Assembly: GCA_027492795.1 (NCBI GenBank)
Contig: JAPUEB010000006.1
Span: forward strand, 124,001 to 188,000
Source of the DNA: Chryseobacterium sp.
Lineage (GTDB): Bacteria; Bacteroidota; Bacteroidia; Flavobacteriales; Weeksellaceae
Length of the DNA stretch: 64,000 nucleotides
Reading direction: 5' to 3'
Made by a program: the position numbers and the translations under genes. The notes under the pieces were generated by a model. The model was not told the DNA's origin. It ran no database searches and was given only the letters and a program-made list of their open reading frames with translations. Shown here piece after piece: positions 31,827 through 38,445 of the stretch. Each line of letters starts with the position of its first letter. The stretch's first letter is position 1.

Positions 31827-31935
31827 TGGTCTTCAAGGTTGAGAAAGCAAAGATAATGAAGAAATCCCTGCAAACCACAAACAAAAAAAGCCCAGATTTT
31901 AGAAATCTAGACATAAAAAAGTGAAAATTCTTTTT

Positions 31936-32220
31936 TTACTTTTTGTTTACCGAAATCAAATAATCGTACACCATTTGATGTTGGTCGTCGGTCAGTTTGG
32001 CTCTTGGTGCCATTCTGCTTAATGTGTTCATCCAACCTTTATCGTCGTGTTTAGTCACCTCAGGTAAAGCATGACATTTGTTGCATGAGTTTTCAAAAAC
32101 GGTTTTTCCTTGTGTAAGCTTTTCTGCTGATGTATATTTAGGACCGGTTACAGCGTTGCTTCTCGCACAGGAAACCATAAAAATGGATGCTACTGCGGCG
32201 CTAAATAGTATTTTTTTCAT
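31936..32220 (-). CDS. Small c-type cytochrome lipoprotein
   Basis: 94 residues: lipoprotein signal (MKKILFSAAVASIFMVSC; Cys18 lipidated), short linker, then a single haem site CNKCH (about residue 46) and axial Met in SRMAPRAKL, ending QMVYDYLISVNKK. It is a monoheme, periplasm-facing electron carrier attached to a membrane. It is clearly related to the 33646 gene: both share QGKT(V/I)F(E/D)N, C-x-KCHxLP, MAPxAKL and VYDY. The two flank the epimerase gene. No assembly gene is nearby. Role is inferred; it may serve the redox locus downstream. Confidence 0.85.
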   Translation of the reverse strand: MKKILFSAAVASIFMVSCARSNAVTGPKYTSAEKLTQGKTVFENSCNKCHALPEVTKHDDKGWMNTLSRMAPRAKLTDDQHQMVYDYLISVNKK

Positions 32221-32345
32221 ATCAAGATTTTTTAATGTTTTATTAATGTGATGTGCAATCGCTTTTCGTTCTTAAAATTTAGAATCAAAAAGAAGCGATT
32301 TCAAAATATTGAGATTTGATGTAAACAAAATTAAATAAATAAAGC

Positions 32346-32353
32346 TACTTTTG
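32346..32353 (+). promoter_or_regulatory. -7 promoter element of the epimerase gene
   Basis: TACTTTTG matches TAnnTTTG and ends 26 bases before the ATG. The nearest TTG (32316) is 27 bases away, so the -33 element is poor. Confidence 0.4.
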
Positions 32354-32379
32354 ATTATACAATTTAAGGCAAATTATTC

Positions 32380-33372
32380 ATGAATCTCACGTGGAAAAAA
32401 TACCGTTTACTGTTAAAAGAAACTTTTTCAATTGCTTATGGGAATTACGATTACAGGGATTCGCTTACCATTATTCTTTCGAAAAACGGCGAGAAAGGTT
32501 ACGGAGAATGCGTCGCAATCAATTATTACCAAATAGATTTAGACGATTTTGAAAAAACGTTGAGTTTCATACAAAGTAAATTTTCCAACCAAAAAATTGT
32601 TCATCCTAACGAGTTTTACCAAACACTTTTATCCTTTAATTTACACCCGTTTTTGCTTTCTGCGATAGATTGCGCTTATTGGGATTTATATGGAAAGCTG
32701 GAGCAAAAAAGTTTTGCTGAACTAAACAAAATTGAAACCTCAAAACTTCCAGAATCTTCCTACACCATCAGTATTGCGACAATTGATGAACAAATCAAAA
32801 AAATAAACGACAGCAGTTGGGAAAAATTCAAAGTGAAATGCAATTCTCTCGATAAGGATAATGTTTTCCGTCTTTTCAGCACAGGAAAAACCATTTCTTT
32901 AGATTCCAATGCCAGTTTTTCCGATGATGAATGTGCGTTTTTGCAAAACAATCCACTTTCTGAGCAATTTTTATACATCGAACAACCGAGACCGATTGGT
33001 GAGTTTCAAATTTTAGATAAAAATCTCCACGCAAATTGGATGGCGGATGAAGATTTTCAGAATGTGAGCTATCTGCCAAAACTCCAAAATCATTATTCCT
33101 CTGTCAATATAAAACTAATGAAATGTGGGGGATTAACACCTGCTTTAGAATTGATATCGGAAGCCCGAAAATTTGGCTATAAAATTATGATTGGCTGTAT
33201 GACGGAAAGTTCCATCGGGATTTCTGCGGGAATTGCCATTGCTCCACTTTGCGATTTTGCAGATTTAGACAGTGCTAATCTTATTTCTAACGACCATGCA
33301 AGTGGAAGTTTTGTAGAAAACGGCAAATTAGTTCCTTCAGAAAAAGCTGGATTGGGAATTTCTTTAAAATAA
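32380..33372 (+). CDS. Enolase-superfamily dipeptide (L-Ala-D/L-Glu type) epimerase
   Basis: 330 residues with the muconate-lactonizing/dipeptide-epimerase layout: lid domain (1-120), then the barrel with KFKVKC (general base Lys), SLDSNASF (metal Asp), YIEQP (metal Glu), ADED (metal Asp), NIKLMKCGG (second Lys) and GCMTESSIGISAG. The last motif is characteristic of L-Ala-D/L-Glu epimerases that recycle murein peptides. Substrate specificity within this group varies, so dipeptide epimerase is the safest name; O-succinylbenzoate synthase is an alternative, less likely given GCMTESS. It is flanked by two paralogous cytochrome genes on the opposite strand. Confidence 0.85.
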   Translation: MNLTWKKYRLLLKETFSIAYGNYDYRDSLTIILSKNGEKGYGECVAINYYQIDLDDFEKTLSFIQSKFSNQKIVHPNEFYQTLLSFNLHPFLLSAIDCAYWDLYGKLEQKSFAELNKIETSKLPESSYTISIATIDEQIKKINDSSWEKFKVKCNSLDKDNVFRLFSTGKTISLDSNASFSDDECAFLQNNPLSEQFLYIEQPRPIGEFQILDKNLHANWMADEDFQNVSYLPKLQNHYSSVNIKLMKCGGLTPALELISEARKFGYKIMIGCMTESSIGISAGIAIAPLCDFADLDSANLISNDHASGSFVENGKLVPSEKAGLGISLK

Positions 33373-33466
33373 GAGAATAAATCTTTTATATAAAAACGAA
33401 CCTTTTTTCTCTTTATAATGCCGAAAACCTATATAATATAGTCCAATTGGATGTAGATTGTTTTTT

Positions 33467-33508
33467 TGCCAAGAATGCACGAATAAATTCATTAGTGCAT
33501 TCGTGGCA
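33467..33508. repeat. Degenerate palindrome of the CACGAATGCACGAAT family
   Basis: Arms TGCCAAGAATGCACGAAT (33467-33484) and ATTAGTGCATTCGTGGCA (33491-33508) pair except at two positions and are followed by TTTTTTT. Confidence 0.75.
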
Positions 33509-33578
33509 TTTTTTTATAACTTTTTTTGGCGTGCTTTATATTTGTGTTCCGTATAACTTTGCATTGAAGCTCTTAAAA

Positions 33579-33598
33579 CTTTTGTGACTATTGTGGTT
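33579..33598 (+). repeat. End copy of the AAGTCACAAAAG inverted-repeat element
   Basis: CTTTTGTGACTATTGTGGTT differs at three positions from the right end of the element at 27943-28081. As there, it lies within about 150 bases of a CACGAATGCACGAAT repeat. Confidence 0.6.
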
Positions 33599-33614
33599 TT
33601 GAACAGGCTATAAC

Positions 33615-33640
33615 AAAAAACTCCCGAAATTCTCGGGAGC
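33615..33640 (-). terminator. Terminator of the 33646 cytochrome gene
   Basis: Minus strand: CTCCCGA / TCGGGAG stem followed by TTTTTT, six bases beyond the stop codon. Confidence 0.85.
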
Positions 33641-33645
33641 TTATT

Positions 33646-33966
33646 CTAATTATTAAAAGTAACGTAATCGTACACCAATTCGCTTTGTTTCGCGTCCAGT
33701 TTGGCTTTTGGAGCCATCGCGTTCATAATTCCCACCCATTTTTCATCGCTGAAACTTTTTGGGTTGGGTAAATCGTGGCATTTTCCGCAACGGTTGTCGA
33801 AAATGGTTTTTCCCTGCGCAATCATGCCTTCTGTAAGTTGTTTTTTGCCGGTAAAAGATGGCGAAACACCAACAACTTTATTAGAAACGGGTTCGGTGGT
33901 AGTTTTACTTTTACACGAAACCAAAAGTGCAACTGCCGCAATTGGAAGAATAAATAGTTTTTTCAT
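33646..33966 (-). CDS. Small c-type cytochrome lipoprotein
   Basis: 106 residues with a lipoprotein signal peptide (LPIAAVALLVSC; Cys18), a Ser/Thr-rich linker, haem site CGKCH (about residue 61) and axial Met in MNAMAPKAKL, ending LVYDYVTFNN. It is paralogous to the 31936 gene, with a longer linker. Likely a membrane-anchored, periplasmic monoheme carrier. It lies 209 bases from apbE, divergent, so it could share regulation with the flavin locus, but no common promoter motif is clear. Confidence 0.85.
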   Translation of the reverse strand: MKKLFILPIAAVALLVSCKSKTTTEPVSNKVVGVSPSFTGKKQLTEGMIAQGKTIFDNRCGKCHDLPNPKSFSDEKWVGIMNAMAPKAKLDAKQSELVYDYVTFNN

Positions 33967-34174
33967 AGCTTAAAATTTTGTTCATTTCCCAAATTTATCA
34001 TTTTTTTTGGTTAGATATTATAATTATTTTTTGAGGAGGTTATTATTAGAAATTTTTATGCAATATGGATTTTGATAATAAATGACGAAAATTTGAAATT
34101 TCAAATATTTCTCATACCGCAGAAATGTTTTTAAGATTTAATTTTTCCTAATTTTATTGAATAATTTTCAGAAA

Positions 34175-35170
34175 ATGAAAACAAAAATTCTTTTCCAAGT
34201 CGTTTTTTTACTTTCAGCCTTTCTTTTCGGGCAAGAAATGATAAAAATAGACGGCAAAGCACAGGGAACAACGTATCATATCTCTTACTACGACAAGCAA
34301 AATCGGAATTTGAAGCCGGAAATTGAACAGATTTTACAGGATTTTGATTTAAGTGTTTCCACGTATAAACCCAATTCCATCATTTCAAAAATCAATAGAA
34401 ATGAACCGGTGAAAGTGGATAAATATTTTAAAGCTTGCTTCAAAAAAGCCAAAGAAGTTTGGAAAAACACAAATGGAGCATTCGACCCGACCGTTTTTTC
34501 TTTGGTTAACGCTTATGGTTTCGGACCCGGAAAAAAGATGAAAATTGAACAGAAAAAAATAGACAGCATATTGCAATTTACCGGTTTTGAAAAAATTTCG
34601 TTGAAAGGAAATAAAATTGTAAAAAAAGATCCGCGGGTTGGGTTGGATTTTAATGCTTTTGCGCAGGGTTATTCGGTGGATGTGGTTTCAGATTTTTTAA
34701 AATCGAAAGGTATAAAATCATTTATCGTGGAAGTTGGCGGCGAAGTTTATGCAAACGGTAAAAAAGCCGACGGAACTAATTGGACCGCTGGAATAGAAAA
34801 ACCCATCGACAACCAAACGAGTACAAATCCTTTGGAAGCCCTTGTTAAACTTGAAAATTTTGCCATCGCAACCTCTGGAAATTATAGAAGATTCTCCATA
34901 GAAAACGGAGTGAAAATTGCACACCACATCGATCCCAAAACAGGACATCCTACCAAAAATAATTTGCTGAGTGCGTCTATTTTTGCAAAAGAATGCATCA
35001 GCGCAGATGCGAATGCGACCGGTGTTCTAGTTCTTGGTTTGGAAAAGGCTAAAACTTTTTTGAAAAACCATCCAGAACTTCAGGCTTTTTTAATTTATTC
35101 GGATGAAAAGGGGAATTACCAGTTTTACGAAACTACTGGTGTAAAAGATATTGTGAAGCAATTGAAATAA
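34175..35170 (+). CDS. apbE: FAD:protein FMN transferase (exported ApbE)
   Basis: Transfers FMN from FAD onto a Thr/Ser of target proteins in the periplasm. 331 residues from ATG 34175 (MKTKILFQVV); a TTG at 34157 would only lengthen the signal peptide. Signal peptide ends near LFGQE. Family landmarks: KAQGTTYHISYYD, LSTYKPNSIISKIN-like region (about 55), FDPTVFSLVNAYGFGP, LDFNAFAQGYSVD, VEVGGEVYANGK, ATSGNYRRF and HHIDPKTGHPT, the Mg/FAD site. No Cys lipobox, so soluble periplasmic. Convergent with the DUF2271 gene, whose product has a candidate acceptor motif. No nqrC or rnfG is nearby. Confidence 0.95.
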   Translation: MKTKILFQVVFLLSAFLFGQEMIKIDGKAQGTTYHISYYDKQNRNLKPEIEQILQDFDLSVSTYKPNSIISKINRNEPVKVDKYFKACFKKAKEVWKNTNGAFDPTVFSLVNAYGFGPGKKMKIEQKKIDSILQFTGFEKISLKGNKIVKKDPRVGLDFNAFAQGYSVDVVSDFLKSKGIKSFIVEVGGEVYANGKKADGTNWTAGIEKPIDNQTSTNPLEALVKLENFAIATSGNYRRFSIENGVKIAHHIDPKTGHPTKNNLLSASIFAKECISADANATGVLVLGLEKAKTFLKNHPELQAFLIYSDEKGNYQFYETTGVKDIVKQLK

Positions 35171-35189
35171 CCTATTTATTATTTCTTTA

Positions 35190-35223
35190 AAAAAAAACCA
35201 CGCAAAAAACGTGGTTTTTCTTT
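35190..35223. terminator. Bidirectional terminator between apbE and the DUF2271 gene
   Basis: AAAACCACG / CGTGGTTTT hairpin flanked by an A run and a T run, between convergent genes. Confidence 0.75.
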
Positions 35224-35236
35224 GTTAATATGAAGG

Positions 35237-36118
35237 TTATTTTTTTAGAAGTTCGTCGTAGTAGGATTTTCCTTTGGTGATGACTTCCACGAAATATAAG
35301 CCCGTTGGTAATTCTTCAATATTGTAAAGTTCAGCTTTCGGCAAATAACGAAGCAGTTTACCGGAAACGTCATAAATTCTCACACCTGTTACATTATCAA
35401 TTCCCTGAATTCTAAAATAATCTGTTACCGGATTTGGATAGAATTTTGGAGAATTTTTTCCATTTACTTCTGTAGTTCCCATTGTAGAAGGCGACCATAA
35501 TAAGGAAACGTTTGTGAAATAGGTTGTATCACCTGTTCCTGTAGGCGGTGTAGTAGTGTTATCTACAGTTGTGGTTCCTTTGGCGAATGTGTAACTTACA
35601 ATAGCATTATGGGCTCCATCTGCAAGCGCTCCTTGCCAAGAACTTTCTATAAAAATAGTGTAATTGCCATCCGGAACCACTGTTCCTGCGTTGTCTTTTC
35701 CATCCCAAGTTACGGAAACCGTTTGTCCAAAAGCGGGCGGAATATTTGTTCCGACAGTGGTTGTTGATCTTGTAGCGCCTGTTACAGCATCCGTAGAAAC
35801 TGCACAAGAAGGATCTGTAGCGTCTAAAAATCCTCCTGCATTCGCTGTTGTAATACATCCTGCTTTAGTTGCCCAAGAAGGAAGGTGGTCTGAAGTTCCC
35901 ATTCCTGCGCCCACATATTTTATTTTGGTTTTTATAAGTGTTCCTGCGGAATTTTCAATCCATACTGCGAATGCATTTTTTGCATTTGTGGCAGAAGGCG
36001 CTGGTGTTGTCGGCTTTGGCTGCAAGTAGGAAAAAGTAAGTGTTCCTGCCGTGGTTTGGGCAAAAACGCAAACTGAAAATCCTATAATTGCCAATAAATT
36101 AAGTAGTTTCGTTTTCAT
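35237..36118 (-). CDS. DUF2271-type secreted protein with predicted flavinylation motif and T9SS sorting domain
   Basis: 293 residues from ATG 36118 (MKTKLLNLLA). Signal peptide to about residue 20 (VCVFAQ). A DUF2271-like domain follows (about 24-215; FAVWIENSAGTLIKT, VTWDGKDNAGTVVPDGNYTIF). Inside it lies DAVTGATRS (Asp110-Thr116), matching the DxxSGAT-type site where ApbE attaches FMN to NqrC/RnfG-like proteins; Thr116 would be the acceptor. A Thr/Pro/Gly linker leads to a type A T9SS sorting domain (FYPNPVTDYFRI, GLYFVEVITKGK). It is the last gene of the five-gene operon and convergent with apbE. The family call is moderate; motif and sorting domain are clear. Confidence 0.82.
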   Translation of the reverse strand: MKTKLLNLLAIIGFSVCVFAQTTAGTLTFSYLQPKPTTPAPSATNAKNAFAVWIENSAGTLIKTKIKYVGAGMGTSDHLPSWATKAGCITTANAGGFLDATDPSCAVSTDAVTGATRSTTTVGTNIPPAFGQTVSVTWDGKDNAGTVVPDGNYTIFIESSWQGALADGAHNAIVSYTFAKGTTTVDNTTTPPTGTGDTTYFTNVSLLWSPSTMGTTEVNGKNSPKFYPNPVTDYFRIQGIDNVTGVRIYDVSGKLLRYLPKAELYNIEELPTGLYFVEVITKGKSYYDELLKK

Positions 36119-36203
36119 TTTAAAATTTATTTTTTTGATTTGGTTAAAAGAGAAAATTGTGGCAAAAACTCTGGTTTGCAATGCTTTTACCACAATCATT
36201 AGG

Positions 36204-36752
36204 TTATAAAGTGAAATTTGCCCAGATTTTTACGTCTTTTGCCACTTTTTGTTTTACCAAAGAAGGAATTTTAATGTTGTAATCTTCCGCTTTTATTGAA
36301 AAAACTGCAGATACTACAATTTTTCCGTTGTCTTTGGACATAGTTGCAGGGATTTTAATTTTCTGTGTAACTCCGTGCAAAGTAAAATCGCCTTCCACAT
36401 AATAGGTCGTTTTTGCAGAAGTAAGTTTTGATGCATCAAAATTCAACACTTTTCCGGTAAAGGTAGATTTCGGATACTTGTCGGACTCCAAATAATTTTC
36501 ATTAAAATGTTCTTCCATCAAGGGAACTTTGAATTTAAAACTTTTGATTAGCGCCTGAACCGCAACTGCATTCGTTTTGGTATCCAAAACCGCAGAAACG
36601 GTGCTGTTGGTGGCGGCAACTTCTTCAAGTGCCGTAGGAACAGATGCCAAAAACTTCACCTGTCCGCTTTTCGTAATCAATTTTTGTCCGAATGTTAAAT
36701 TTCCTAATAGAAATAAGAAACTTAATATCACTACATTTTTTAGTATTTTCAT
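36204..36752 (-). CDS. YceI family periplasmic protein
   Basis: 182 residues with signal peptide (to about 22, GNLTFGQ) and the YceI lipocalin-like fold: VKFLASVPTALEEVAATNSTVSAVLD, FKFKVPLMEEHFNENYLESDKYP cited as landmarks in parts, FTLHGVTQKIKIPATM, and a C-terminal VAKDVKIWANFTL. YceI proteins bind isoprenoid chains such as quinones in a hydrophobic barrel. In this operon a quinone or lipid role next to a cytochrome is plausible but inferred. Its start is 26 bases after the cytochrome gene stop. Confidence 0.9.
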   Translation of the reverse strand: MKILKNVVILSFLFLLGNLTFGQKLITKSGQVKFLASVPTALEEVAATNSTVSAVLDTKTNAVAVQALIKSFKFKVPLMEEHFNENYLESDKYPKSTFTGKVLNFDASKLTSAKTTYYVEGDFTLHGVTQKIKIPATMSKDNGKIVVSAVFSIKAEDYNIKIPSLVKQKVAKDVKIWANFTL

Positions 36753-36778
36753 TTTTTTAAATTTTGTTTAATTAATAA

Positions 36779-37102
36779 TTATTCCGGCATTCCGGCGTTT
36801 TTCCAGTTTTGTATCACTTGAATGGTGGTGGATGGCAATGCTCCTGCAGGAGGCATCGTTCCGTTGTTCATAGTAGATAATACGGTTGTGATATTGTTTT
36901 TTACCTGAGTGTAGTTTTCTAAAAAAGGCATTTCTCCTCCCGCTGTAGAGTGGCAACTGGTGCAACTTGCCGTCATAATTGGTTTTACGTTATTGTTGTA
37001 AGTTACGGTGGTGGGAACTGCTGGTGAAATGTCTTCGTAAGTCCTTGTGTCGCATGAGGTTATCAATGAAAGCCCCAAAATCGATATGAATATTTTTTTC
37101 AT
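36779..37102 (-). CDS. c-type cytochrome lipoprotein
   Basis: 107 residues: lipoprotein signal peptide ending LITSC (Cys17), then TYNNNVKPIMTASCTSCH with one haem site (CTSCH, about residue 47-51), a middle helix region, and MNNGTMPPAGALP carrying the axial Met. The NNNVKPIM...CxxCH layout is that of the planctomycete-type/PSCyt-like cytochromes, different from the two small cytochromes upstream. Operon neighbours on both sides are within 26 bases. It probably shuttles electrons at the outer or inner membrane surface. Confidence 0.85.
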   Translation of the reverse strand: MKKIFISILGLSLITSCDTRTYEDISPAVPTTVTYNNNVKPIMTASCTSCHSTAGGEMPFLENYTQVKNNITTVLSTMNNGTMPPAGALPSTTIQVIQNWKNAGMPE

Positions 37103-37123
37103 TTTATTAAAAGGTGATTAAAA

Positions 37124-37999
37124 TTAAAATACACGATACATGTTAAACCCTAAATAAATTCCGCCTTCGCCTATATTTCCTGCCGTATTGCTGAAGTAGC
37201 CAACTTCGCTCATTCTTTGGCTGTTGGAAAGTAGAAGTTGGAAAACGTGTCCTCCCGTATCAATATCAACGCCCAAAGAAACAGGATTGTAGTAGGATTT
37301 GGTATTTGCAGGGTTTATTCTCAAGCCATATTCAGCGTTGACACTTACTCGGTTTGAAAGCTTGAATCTTCCTCCTGCTGCAACTATTTGGTCGTTTTTA
37401 TTTTCTGTATTGGGATCAATCAAATTTTTGTGAATCCAAACTCCAGCGAGTTCCAACGATATTTTATCGTTTATCATTCTGGAAATCAACAGTTGCGTGG
37501 AGTAGGACAATTTATCATTAAATTGGATGTTAGGATAAGTTGCCTGCTTCAGATTGGTGTTGATGTTCACAGAATTGTATCCTACCATTGTTACGGGCAT
37601 ATTTTCAGATTGCAGTGCGAAACGGTATTTTGCGGTAAGCTCATAAAGTTTCGGGTTTTGTCTGGTAACGCCCAAAGAAAGCCAATCGTTAATACCGTAG
37701 ATGAAACCAAGCTTTGTGGTGGCTTTATCCATTCCTAAAAAATTGTCGAGGAAATTAACGTCTTCACCGCCTATTGCGCCAAAACGGTGGGTAACAATCA
37801 TATAAAGTTCCTTTTTTGCAGGTGTTTTAGTAGATTGCATATTTACGATTTGCAAAGCCTTAAAGGCAGTTGCCGTGCTCATTTCGAGTTTTTGCTCCAC
37901 ATTTCCGCTGTCCAGTGATTTTAGCAAATCATCCTGTCCAAACATCACGGATGCAAAGGAAATTAAGAAAATCAAACTTATAAATCTTGCTAGTTTCAT
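37124..37999 (-). CDS. DUF5777 family beta-barrel protein
   Basis: 291 residues with a signal peptide (to about 21, ASVMFGQDD) followed by an outer-membrane beta-barrel of roughly a dozen strands (HRFGAIGGEDVNFLDNFLGMDKATT, YGINDWLSLGVTRQNPK, GGIYLGFNMYRVF at the end, with terminal aromatic). DUF5777 members are found in Bacteroidota beside YceI and cytochrome genes. Their substrate is unknown. The barrel is too small for a multihaem conduit of the MtrB kind (26-28 strands). Second gene of the operon, 19 bases after the OB-fold gene. Confidence 0.82.
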   Translation of the reverse strand: MKLARFISLIFLISFASVMFGQDDLLKSLDSGNVEQKLEMSTATAFKALQIVNMQSTKTPAKKELYMIVTHRFGAIGGEDVNFLDNFLGMDKATTKLGFIYGINDWLSLGVTRQNPKLYELTAKYRFALQSENMPVTMVGYNSVNINTNLKQATYPNIQFNDKLSYSTQLLISRMINDKISLELAGVWIHKNLIDPNTENKNDQIVAAGGRFKLSNRVSVNAEYGLRINPANTKSYYNPVSLGVDIDTGGHVFQLLLSNSQRMSEVGYFSNTAGNIGEGGIYLGFNMYRVF

Positions 38000-38018
38000 T
38001 TTAAATTATTTTAAGTTT

Positions 38019-38402
38019 TTATTTAACAATAGTGCATTGGTCCAGCTGAACGGATTCTACCAAGCTGTCATAACCTACCAATCTTCCTTTTATAGAAAGT
38101 TTATCGCCTGCTTTTATGTTCGCTACAGGTGCTGCAAATTTGAAATCTACCCCGTCGAAAGAAACCGTATCTCCAGCCGCGCTCGTAACAACGCCGGAAA
38201 CCTCAATTGCTTTATCTTGGTATTTTTTTGTTGCGGCGGTTTCATTTGATACAAATTCACCCTTCAAAGCTGCCGAATTGATTTTAAAATCCGCAGAAGA
38301 TGTGGTGTAATCCTTCACTCCGTAGTAATAGGACATATAATAATATGCGCCGTAGCCAATGATTGCTAGGAGTGCAAGTCCAATTAGTATTTTCTTAAGC
38401 AT
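38019..38402 (-). CDS. OB-fold (tRNA_anti-like) membrane-anchored protein
   Basis: 127 residues: one N-terminal membrane anchor (about 4-24, LIGLALLAIIGYGAYYYMSYYY), a stretch with DYTTSSADFKINSAALKGEF, and an OB-fold core (YQDKAIEVSGVV, GDKLSIKGRLVGYD, VQLDQCTIVK). Bacteroidota proteins of this tRNA_anti-like family are periplasmic and of unknown function. It is the first gene of the five-gene operon and probably sets its promoter boundary. Confidence 0.8.
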   Translation of the reverse strand: MLKKILIGLALLAIIGYGAYYYMSYYYGVKDYTTSSADFKINSAALKGEFVSNETAATKKYQDKAIEVSGVVTSAAGDTVSFDGVDFKFAAPVANIKAGDKLSIKGRLVGYDSLVESVQLDQCTIVK

Positions 38403-38418: not shown

Positions 38419-38445
38419 CAAAATTATATCTATTGCAAAAAACAA
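38419..38445 (-). promoter_or_regulatory. Candidate promoter of the OB-fold to DUF2271 operon
   Basis: Minus strand: TTG (38443-38445), 16-base spacer, TAATTTTG (38419-38426), 16 bases before the ATG at 38402. Spacing is a little short. Confidence 0.45.

Follow-up and report, generated by a model that had tools for sequence, protein, structure and literature searches.

A DUF5777-cytochrome-YceI operon with a predicted type IX-secreted carrier in Chryseobacterium suggests a form of cell-surface electron transfer not described so far

Gene content of the locus

A 64,000-nucleotide stretch of Chryseobacterium sp. (contig JAPUEB010000006.1), here called the window, was analysed for a putative redox module within positions 31936-38402. 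In this module, a five-gene operon ending in a DUF2271-like protein with a sorting tail of the type IX secretion system (T9SS) faces a gene for ApbE, the flavin adenine dinucleotide (FAD):protein flavin mononucleotide (FMN) transferase. All genes named in an earlier sequence-only reading of this region were recovered by open reading frame prediction and Pfam searches. The features of the operon and of apbE are listed below.

38019..38402, minus strand: OB-fold (tRNA_anti-like) protein, first gene of the operon (PF12869, E 1.2e-9)
37124..37999, minus strand: DUF5777 outer-membrane beta-barrel (PF19089, E 8e-78)
36779..37102, minus strand: monohaem c lipoprotein (CTSCH), core component; CXXCH and lipobox-like Cys found by eye
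36204..36752, minus strand: YceI lipocalin, core component (PF04264, E 3.6e-18); export judged by eye
35237..36118, minus strand: DUF2271-like protein bearing a T9SS type A tail, the proposed flavinylated carrier
35771-35791, minus strand: DAVTGAT flavinylation motif, predicted target Thr116
35237..35440, minus strand: T9SS C-terminal sorting domain (PF18962, E 5e-10; TIGR04183, E 6e-10)
34175..35170, plus strand: ApbE (FAD:protein FMN transferase), signal peptide by eye (PF02424, E 5e-78)
35193..35219, strand not assigned: terminator-like hairpin in the 66 bp that separate the stops of apbE and the DUF2271 gene
38419..38426, minus strand: TAATTTTG, a weak candidate for a Bacteroidota -7 box of the operon

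The operon is arranged on the minus strand in the order OB-fold protein, DUF5777 barrel, monohaem c lipoprotein, YceI and DUF2271-T9SS protein. Its internal gaps measure 19, 21, 26 and 85 bp, and apbE on the plus strand converges on the DUF2271-T9SS gene with 66 bp from stop to stop, which agrees with the operon of 19 to 85 base gaps and the convergent apbE described before. Thr116, named earlier as the target in DAVTGAT, was confirmed by counting from the ATG at 36118. Signal peptides of the locus proteins were judged by eye, as was the single N-terminal membrane segment of the OB-fold protein. The three small cytochromes of the window carry one CXXCH each and, by eye, a lipobox-like Cys; all were below the Pfam cut-offs.

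Terminator-like hairpins were found at 10 sites of the region (5.6 +/- 2.3 expected). The assignment of TAATTTTG was based on what we take to be the Bacteroidota -7 consensus; this pattern occurred 110 times in the window against 90 +/- 9 expected, and 1 of 100 shuffles was equally high. Scans of the region for sigma-70 promoters gave chance level only.

The DUF2271 protein, its predicted export and its probable ApbE

As judged by sequence comparison, the T9SS-tailed DUF2271 proteins form a real family, which we count as new. A scan of the species-genome collection yielded 33 loci, 12 of them with full relatives outside the window; the other 21 were weaker matches (20 shorter than 60 residues) and were excluded as relatives. 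The 12 relatives were assigned to four Flavobacterium, Kaistella gelatinilytica, one metagenome Flavobacteriaceae and six metagenome Bacteroidetes. A T9SS tail was present in all 15 aligned members, window protein included, and [ST]GAT in 14 of them; a sixteenth member (L248) has TGAT, which brings [S/T]GAT to 15/16.

The window protein matched DUF2271 at E 1.2e-5 and 25.5 bits, just below the Pfam cut-off of 27.3, and reached 27.8 bits when neighbours in frame were included. At a threshold of 0.01, the domain was detected in 8 of the 15 members including the window protein (best E 2.9e-8). For comparison with classical DUF2271 proteins, 21 loci (L143-L163) were reduced to nine open reading frames, of which the motif-less L155 and L160 were left out and seven rows were compared. 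The family motif was in register with the classical TGAS (hhalign E 0.0005, at a probability of only 33%). Flavinylation of DUF2271 has been demonstrated experimentally elsewhere, with a Thr-to-Ala control (Meheust et al. 2021, eLife, PMC8238504).

Export is indicated by the tail. In a Foldseek search with the AlphaFold2 model of the protein, the tail matched the T9SS C-terminal domains 8glk, 8qb1 and 8glj (E 0.002-0.015, target template modelling (TM) scores 0.63-0.77); the sole match below 0.001 was an unrelated glycosidase, 9x1i, with a query TM-score of 0.23. The predicted local distance difference test score (pLDDT) of this model was 72 and fell below 60 around the flavin site, so that no flavin-site geometry is claimed. 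The T9SS translocon component SprA is encoded in the window genome (SprA_N, E 1e-150). By its tail and by this SprA, the window protein is predicted to be a T9SS type A substrate, which supports the export suggested by the sequence-only reading.

A gene for ApbE was found at 9 of the 12 related loci, or 10 of 14 when the window and L248 are counted. The nine proteins are 58-75% identical to the window ApbE, and at seven of these loci the gene is convergent within 66 bp. In Kaistella gelatinilytica it is co-directional and lies 130 bp downstream of the flavin gene, and in L177 it lies 1.4 kb away; L180 and L183, where none was seen, are short contigs. The window genome holds a second ApbE on another contig (L122), 28.5% identical to the first. 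FMN_bind (PF04205), NqrB/RnfD (PF03116) and DUF3570 had no match in the window genome, with matches in control genomes; flavodoxin_4- and FMN-reductase-type substrates were outside this search. The only DUF2271 match was the window protein itself, which is thus, by sequence, the only ApbE candidate among the four substrate families searched. As the genome is 97% complete, the absences are strong, not absolute. Nqr/Rnf as clients of the window apbE were ruled out by the missing PF04205 and PF03116 matches, and DUF3570 proteins by the missing DUF3570 match.

A different assignment would make the T9SS protein a structural or adhesive protein of the FlgD-Ig type, with the nearby apbE serving some other target. 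FlgD_ig does outscore DUF2271 in the window protein (E 3e-8 versus 1e-5), it matches 13 of the 15 members, a profile match to FlgD was obtained in PDB (E 6e-4), and the flavodoxin_4- and FMN-reductase-type targets (PMC11334425, a paper that also contributes structural models) were outside the genome search. The strongly conserved [ST]GAT in register with DUF2271, the apbE at 9/12 loci and the lack of FMN_bind, NqrB/RnfD and DUF3570 in the genome make this assignment highly improbable. Because the motif and the convergent apbE are conserved and three other substrate families are unmatched, the neighbouring ApbE very likely loads flavin onto the exported DUF2271-T9SS protein, as had been proposed from the sequence.

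The five-gene order OB-DUF5777-cytochrome-YceI-DUF2271 recurred at 5 of the 12 related loci (L173, L174, L175, L176, L179) besides the window, which exceeds chance. Flavobacterium alvei and Kaistella gelatinilytica are among the species with loci of this operon. At L177, L181, L182, L184 and L248 the flavin protein is located apart from DUF5777; L178, L180 and L183 are contigs below 4 kb and uninformative in this respect.

A small DUF2231-like membrane protein was noted by eye on the contig of the second apbE (contig C9 of the same genome; L122:1838-2356 and L122:9201-10121). Near its C-terminus stands HTEIRSGATVQNG, after which comes an acidic tail; the SGAT may be an ApbE target that has not been listed. 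A cytochrome b561-like gene, also recognised by eye, shares this contig. In Kaistella gelatinilytica, a Pfam-confirmed DUF2231 gene adjoins apbE (L094:3236-3694).

The conserved core and its proposed alternative carriers

Searches found DUF5777 in 115 of the 296 genomes sampled from the phylum; the order had it in 181 of 296 genomes, the family in 71 of 197. A hand-picked, non-random selection of 99 loci was drawn from these match lists, and the counts exclude L136, where no DUF5777 was called, and L248, which had been fetched for its DUF2271. YceI was located within four genes of DUF5777 at 88/99 loci, window included, compared to 3 of 357 genes further away. Homologues of the small cytochrome were found within the same distance at 87/99 loci, a lower bound like all cytochrome counts since the gene caller misses some small genes, and OB-fold homologues at 20/59 and 24/40. 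All 91 cytochrome homologues of up to 160 residues had a haem c motif (71 CX2CH, 19 CX4CH, 1 CX5CH); the profile was trained on haem proteins and favours recovery of such motifs. Judged from these neighbourhoods, DUF5777, the small haem-c lipoprotein and YceI are a conserved core, which we count as new.

The AlphaFold2 model of DUF5777 has 12 strands at low confidence (pLDDT 53), and the C-terminal residue is F in 6/6 aligned sequences. Foldseek returned 32 matches at E<=0.001 with low TM-scores, all outer-membrane barrels by title; as the model is poor, this list indicates barrel type only. FadL and TodX, barrels for hydrophobic compounds, and the COG4313 channel were among the many porin matches, and YceI binds isoprenoids (as told in PMC9113575). 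DUF5777 might therefore export or import an isoprenoid or quinone-like molecule handed over by YceI, with the redox proteins recycling a soluble shuttle outside. The confidence of the model is too low for assigning a transport type, and we rate this explanation as unlikely.

The main rival to electron transfer is an antioxidant function as in BcnA/LcoA of Burkholderia. Here quinone bound to YceI would quench the peroxyl radicals of outer-membrane lipids and be re-reduced by the cytochrome, and the T9SS carrier would scavenge oxidants outside. In Burkholderia, peroxidation of membrane lipids is lowered by YceI together with the cytochrome b561 LcoA (PMC9113575). No partner of DUF5777 is more constant in our loci than YceI, and a Crp-type regulator cluster (Pfam on one member) lies by DUF5777 at 17/59 loci, as could be the case at a stress-responsive locus. 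Both systems combine a YceI lipocalin with a cytochrome in the envelope, whereas the window has a c-type monohaem lipoprotein instead of b561 and adds a barrel, ApbE and a T9SS carrier, none of the last three being part of the BcnA/LcoA account as far as that source was covered (it mentions no T9SS carrier, ApbE or DUF5777). No cytochrome b561 was present among the 10 window proteins scanned; the search for b561 was confined to these. In our judgement, a dedicated flavin loader and the three kinds of carrier described below suit electron transfer better, and the antioxidant function is a serious, if doubtful, contender.

Further genes were observed near the core. A Rieske-type cluster occurs in the operons of L094, L131 and L134 (Pfam on L094 only, the others by cluster). 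In L094, L103, L104, L174, L175, L176, L233 and L245, a trio of extracytoplasmic function (ECF) sigma factor, FecR and TonB-type barrel, recognised by eye, lies beside the DUF5777 operon, which suggests regulation of the operon by a surface signal. Longer lipoprotein-like cytochromes (225-247 aa) are encoded in the DUF5777 operons of L126-L130 and L134. In the part of them that was read, they have CX4CH (CX6CH in L127) besides CX2CH and may be dihaem proteins.

At other loci, the gene cluster has different T9SS-tailed proteins in place of the flavin protein. In 17 of 20 loci from the window's family, YceI is followed by genes for an ankyrin protein and for a T9SS protein roughly 250 residues long. 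Three of these T9SS proteins were scanned, and two matched Pfam DOMON (E 0.003 and 6e-5). A tail-free DOMON-like profile joined L103, L105 and L120 to the other members (E <= 9e-23) and matched neither the flavin nor the copper proteins. All 20 of 20 DOMON-like proteins share an invariant Met and an invariant His, which we take to resemble the haem-b ligands of cellobiose dehydrogenase; on these residues, the DOMON-T9SS proteins probably bind haem b. The T9SS protein of L110 is plastocyanin-like (Copper-bind, E 8e-7), and those of L112 and L217 appear so by eye, the Pfam scan having been run on L110 only.

A tree was calculated from 102 DUF5777 rows after removal of rows below 230 aa and of L094, which is from the same organism as L179. 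A short search, Shimodaira-Hasegawa-like approximate likelihood-ratio test (SH-aLRT) support only and a midpoint root were used. DOMON labels were set by script in the first 59 loci, the others from the T9SS tails displayed. All three carrier kinds (DUF2271, DOMON, plastocyanin-like) were confined to one group of 50 rows (support 100), in which 29 rows had a T9SS-tailed carrier of one of them. All six flavin loci were placed with two DOMON loci in a group of eight rows, with L103 (DOMON) as sister of L176 (flavin; support 96). The flavin label required three changes on the tree, all forced by well-supported branches. This interleaving of flavin and DOMON loci means that the core is retained among close relatives while the carrier differs. 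The window DUF5777 paired with that of Kaistella gelatinilytica (support 100), near Flavobacterium and outside the 19 rows in which the relatives from the family group together; this placement suggests that the window operon was gained horizontally.

The DOMON-like and plastocyanin-like T9SS proteins in these clusters would also fit an electron supply to an extracellular oxidative enzyme, in which a secreted enzyme with copper or flavin would receive electrons from the T9SS carrier. Such a role towards lytic polysaccharide monooxygenases is proposed for DOMON haem domains and for YceI/cytochrome proteins of the Cbp2D type. A precedent is Cbp2D, which joins a YceI-like ubiquinone domain to a c-type cytochrome domain that can reduce a lytic polysaccharide monooxygenase (PMC12542752). 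No oxidative enzyme was recognised among the recurrent neighbour clusters of the first loci, the neighbours of the 40 later loci not being annotated, and this supply function appears quite improbable.

Two further proteins near DUF5777 were recorded. At L232:4734-5954, a repeat protein that by eye is Lipoprotein_15-like with a plastocyanin-like C-terminus lies between two YceI/DUF5777 gene sets and may be yet another kind of carrier. At L212:4137-4934, four genes from DUF5777, a protein with a T9SS tail was found to contain one CXXCH haem motif.

The sequence-only reading had placed three cytochromes in the module. The one at 36779 stands, with its homologues at 87/99 loci; the two listed below do not.

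31936-32220: small monohaem lipoprotein, own hairpin at 31890-31912
33646-33966: small monohaem lipoprotein, own hairpin at 33618-33642

Among the genes of 59 other DUF5777 stretches, L122 and the window, these two had only self-matches. They were rejected as module parts by this lack of homologues at other DUF5777 loci and are, on sequence grounds, probably bystanders. By eye the two resemble each other, and both are weakly similar to the C-terminal part of TorC (NCBIfam).

Proposed electron transfer at the cell surface

Gene content and its conservation, the motifs, the carrier alternatives on the tree, SprA and the missing matches to three substrate families are the observations to be explained. 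They are best explained by a redox module of the outer membrane whose electron carrier is delivered by T9SS and can be exchanged, and we hold this explanation at somewhat better than even confidence. Its core would consist of the DUF5777 barrel in the outer membrane, the monohaem c lipoprotein and the YceI lipocalin, whose ligand is probably an isoprenoid quinone; the OB-fold protein would be an accessory. A T9SS-exported carrier with one cofactor would be added to this core, here the DUF2271 domain, which ApbE would flavinylate on Thr116 in the periplasm, before or during export. T9SS would then place the carrier on the cell surface, where the haem lipoprotein and YceI would link it to the quinone pool of the envelope. 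Electrons would pass between the quinone/cytochrome pool and the surface flavin, and on to or from a putative external partner. In relatives, a DOMON protein, probably with haem b, or a plastocyanin-like protein, presumably with copper, would act as carrier.

Known systems share parts of this module. DUF2271/ApbE/PepSY-like systems have an ApbE, a DUF2271 with [S/T]GA[S/T] and a proposed extracytosolic electron transfer, and an interchange of flavin and cytochrome between clusters has been noted (PMC8238504). The window carrier differs in its T9SS tail and its DUF5777-cytochrome-YceI operon, and a Pfam scan of 10 window proteins gave no PepSY-like protein. The main text of PMC8238504 has no mention of T9SS, type IX, YceI, DUF5777, DOMON or plastocyanin; an unremarked listing in its supplements is possible. 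DUF2271 as an ApbE substrate is already published, so that part of the earlier interpretation was known, and the context of T9SS, core and carrier is new. Cbp2D/Cbp2E of Cellvibrio share a YceI-like quinone domain, a c-type cytochrome and a proposed extracellular electron delivery; unlike the T9SS operon, Cbp2D is a single CBM2 protein of several domains, and no flavin is mentioned in the sections of PMC12542752 covered. In the open-licence literature, no paper was found naming DUF5777, joining T9SS, cytochrome and extracellular electron transfer, treating DUF2271 in Bacteroidota, or treating ApbE and YceI in Flavobacterium. For type IX secretion together with flavinylat-, PMC9331221 was retrieved, which has the latter word once, in its reference list.

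Several results weigh against a surface redox module. Porin-cytochrome conduits of the MtrCAB type combine an outer-membrane barrel, haem c proteins and surface carriers. The window module resembles them in its predicted barrel, its haem c protein and its proposed surface carrier, but has a single haem and about 12 strands in a model of pLDDT 53; multihaem cytochromes like those of MtrCAB are absent, as each of the three cytochromes in the window has only one CXXCH. Going by the model, such a set leaves no room for a long haem wire and offers no obvious electron conduit. The known signal for surface lipoproteins has acidic residues at +4/+5 (PMC5080379); the window cytochrome has them at +2, +7 and +8 and thus does not clearly carry this signal. 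With respect to the flavin loader, L184 bears TGTT, not TGAT, although apbE adjoins, L176 is without apbE on 18.7 kb, and L248 is without apbE and DUF5777 in 19 kb. Both DOMON matches are below the Pfam cut-off, the third protein scanned had none, and the T9SS-tailed protein of the L216 operon (249 aa) has no recognised redox domain, so that the carrier slot is not always of redox type. No carrier of the three kinds was found near 73 of the 102 DUF5777 rows, from which it follows that the carrier is dispensable for the core function.

The flavin form is also rare. Domain-only queries were used because the full-length DUF2271-T9SS query matched 49/59 genomes, mostly through the T9SS tail among the matches listed. 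Flavin forms were found in at least 2 of 296 genomes of the order, where the best 11 first-look candidates per genome were scored and members may have been missed. Among 119 relatives, only the genome of the window itself and one weak match were obtained. A lack of neighbourhood conservation, which would have refuted the sequence-only reading, was not what more distant relatives showed, although most close relatives have no flavin form.

Electron transfer at the surface, to which that reading had pointed, is what we infer for the module; it is strengthened by the flavin, DOMON and copper alternatives in the same gene cluster, and the earlier interpretation is partly supported overall. More broadly, and somewhat short of even confidence, the DUF5777-cytochrome-YceI core may be a general outer-membrane redox port that is kept while evolution exchanges covalent FMN, haem b and copper as cofactor of the carrier at the surface; a T9SS-based extracellular electron transfer of Bacteroidota would belong to this port and is held just as tentatively.

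DUF5777 is common in the order (181/296 genomes) and accompanied by YceI and the haem lipoprotein at most loci, yet no paper naming it was found. With three kinds of carrier on one sorting tail, the electron-transfer hypothesis can be put to a direct test. What the operon suggests is electron transfer at the cell surface of a kind not described so far. If this is true, T9SS would, to our knowledge, newly join the export routes of ApbE-flavinylated proteins.

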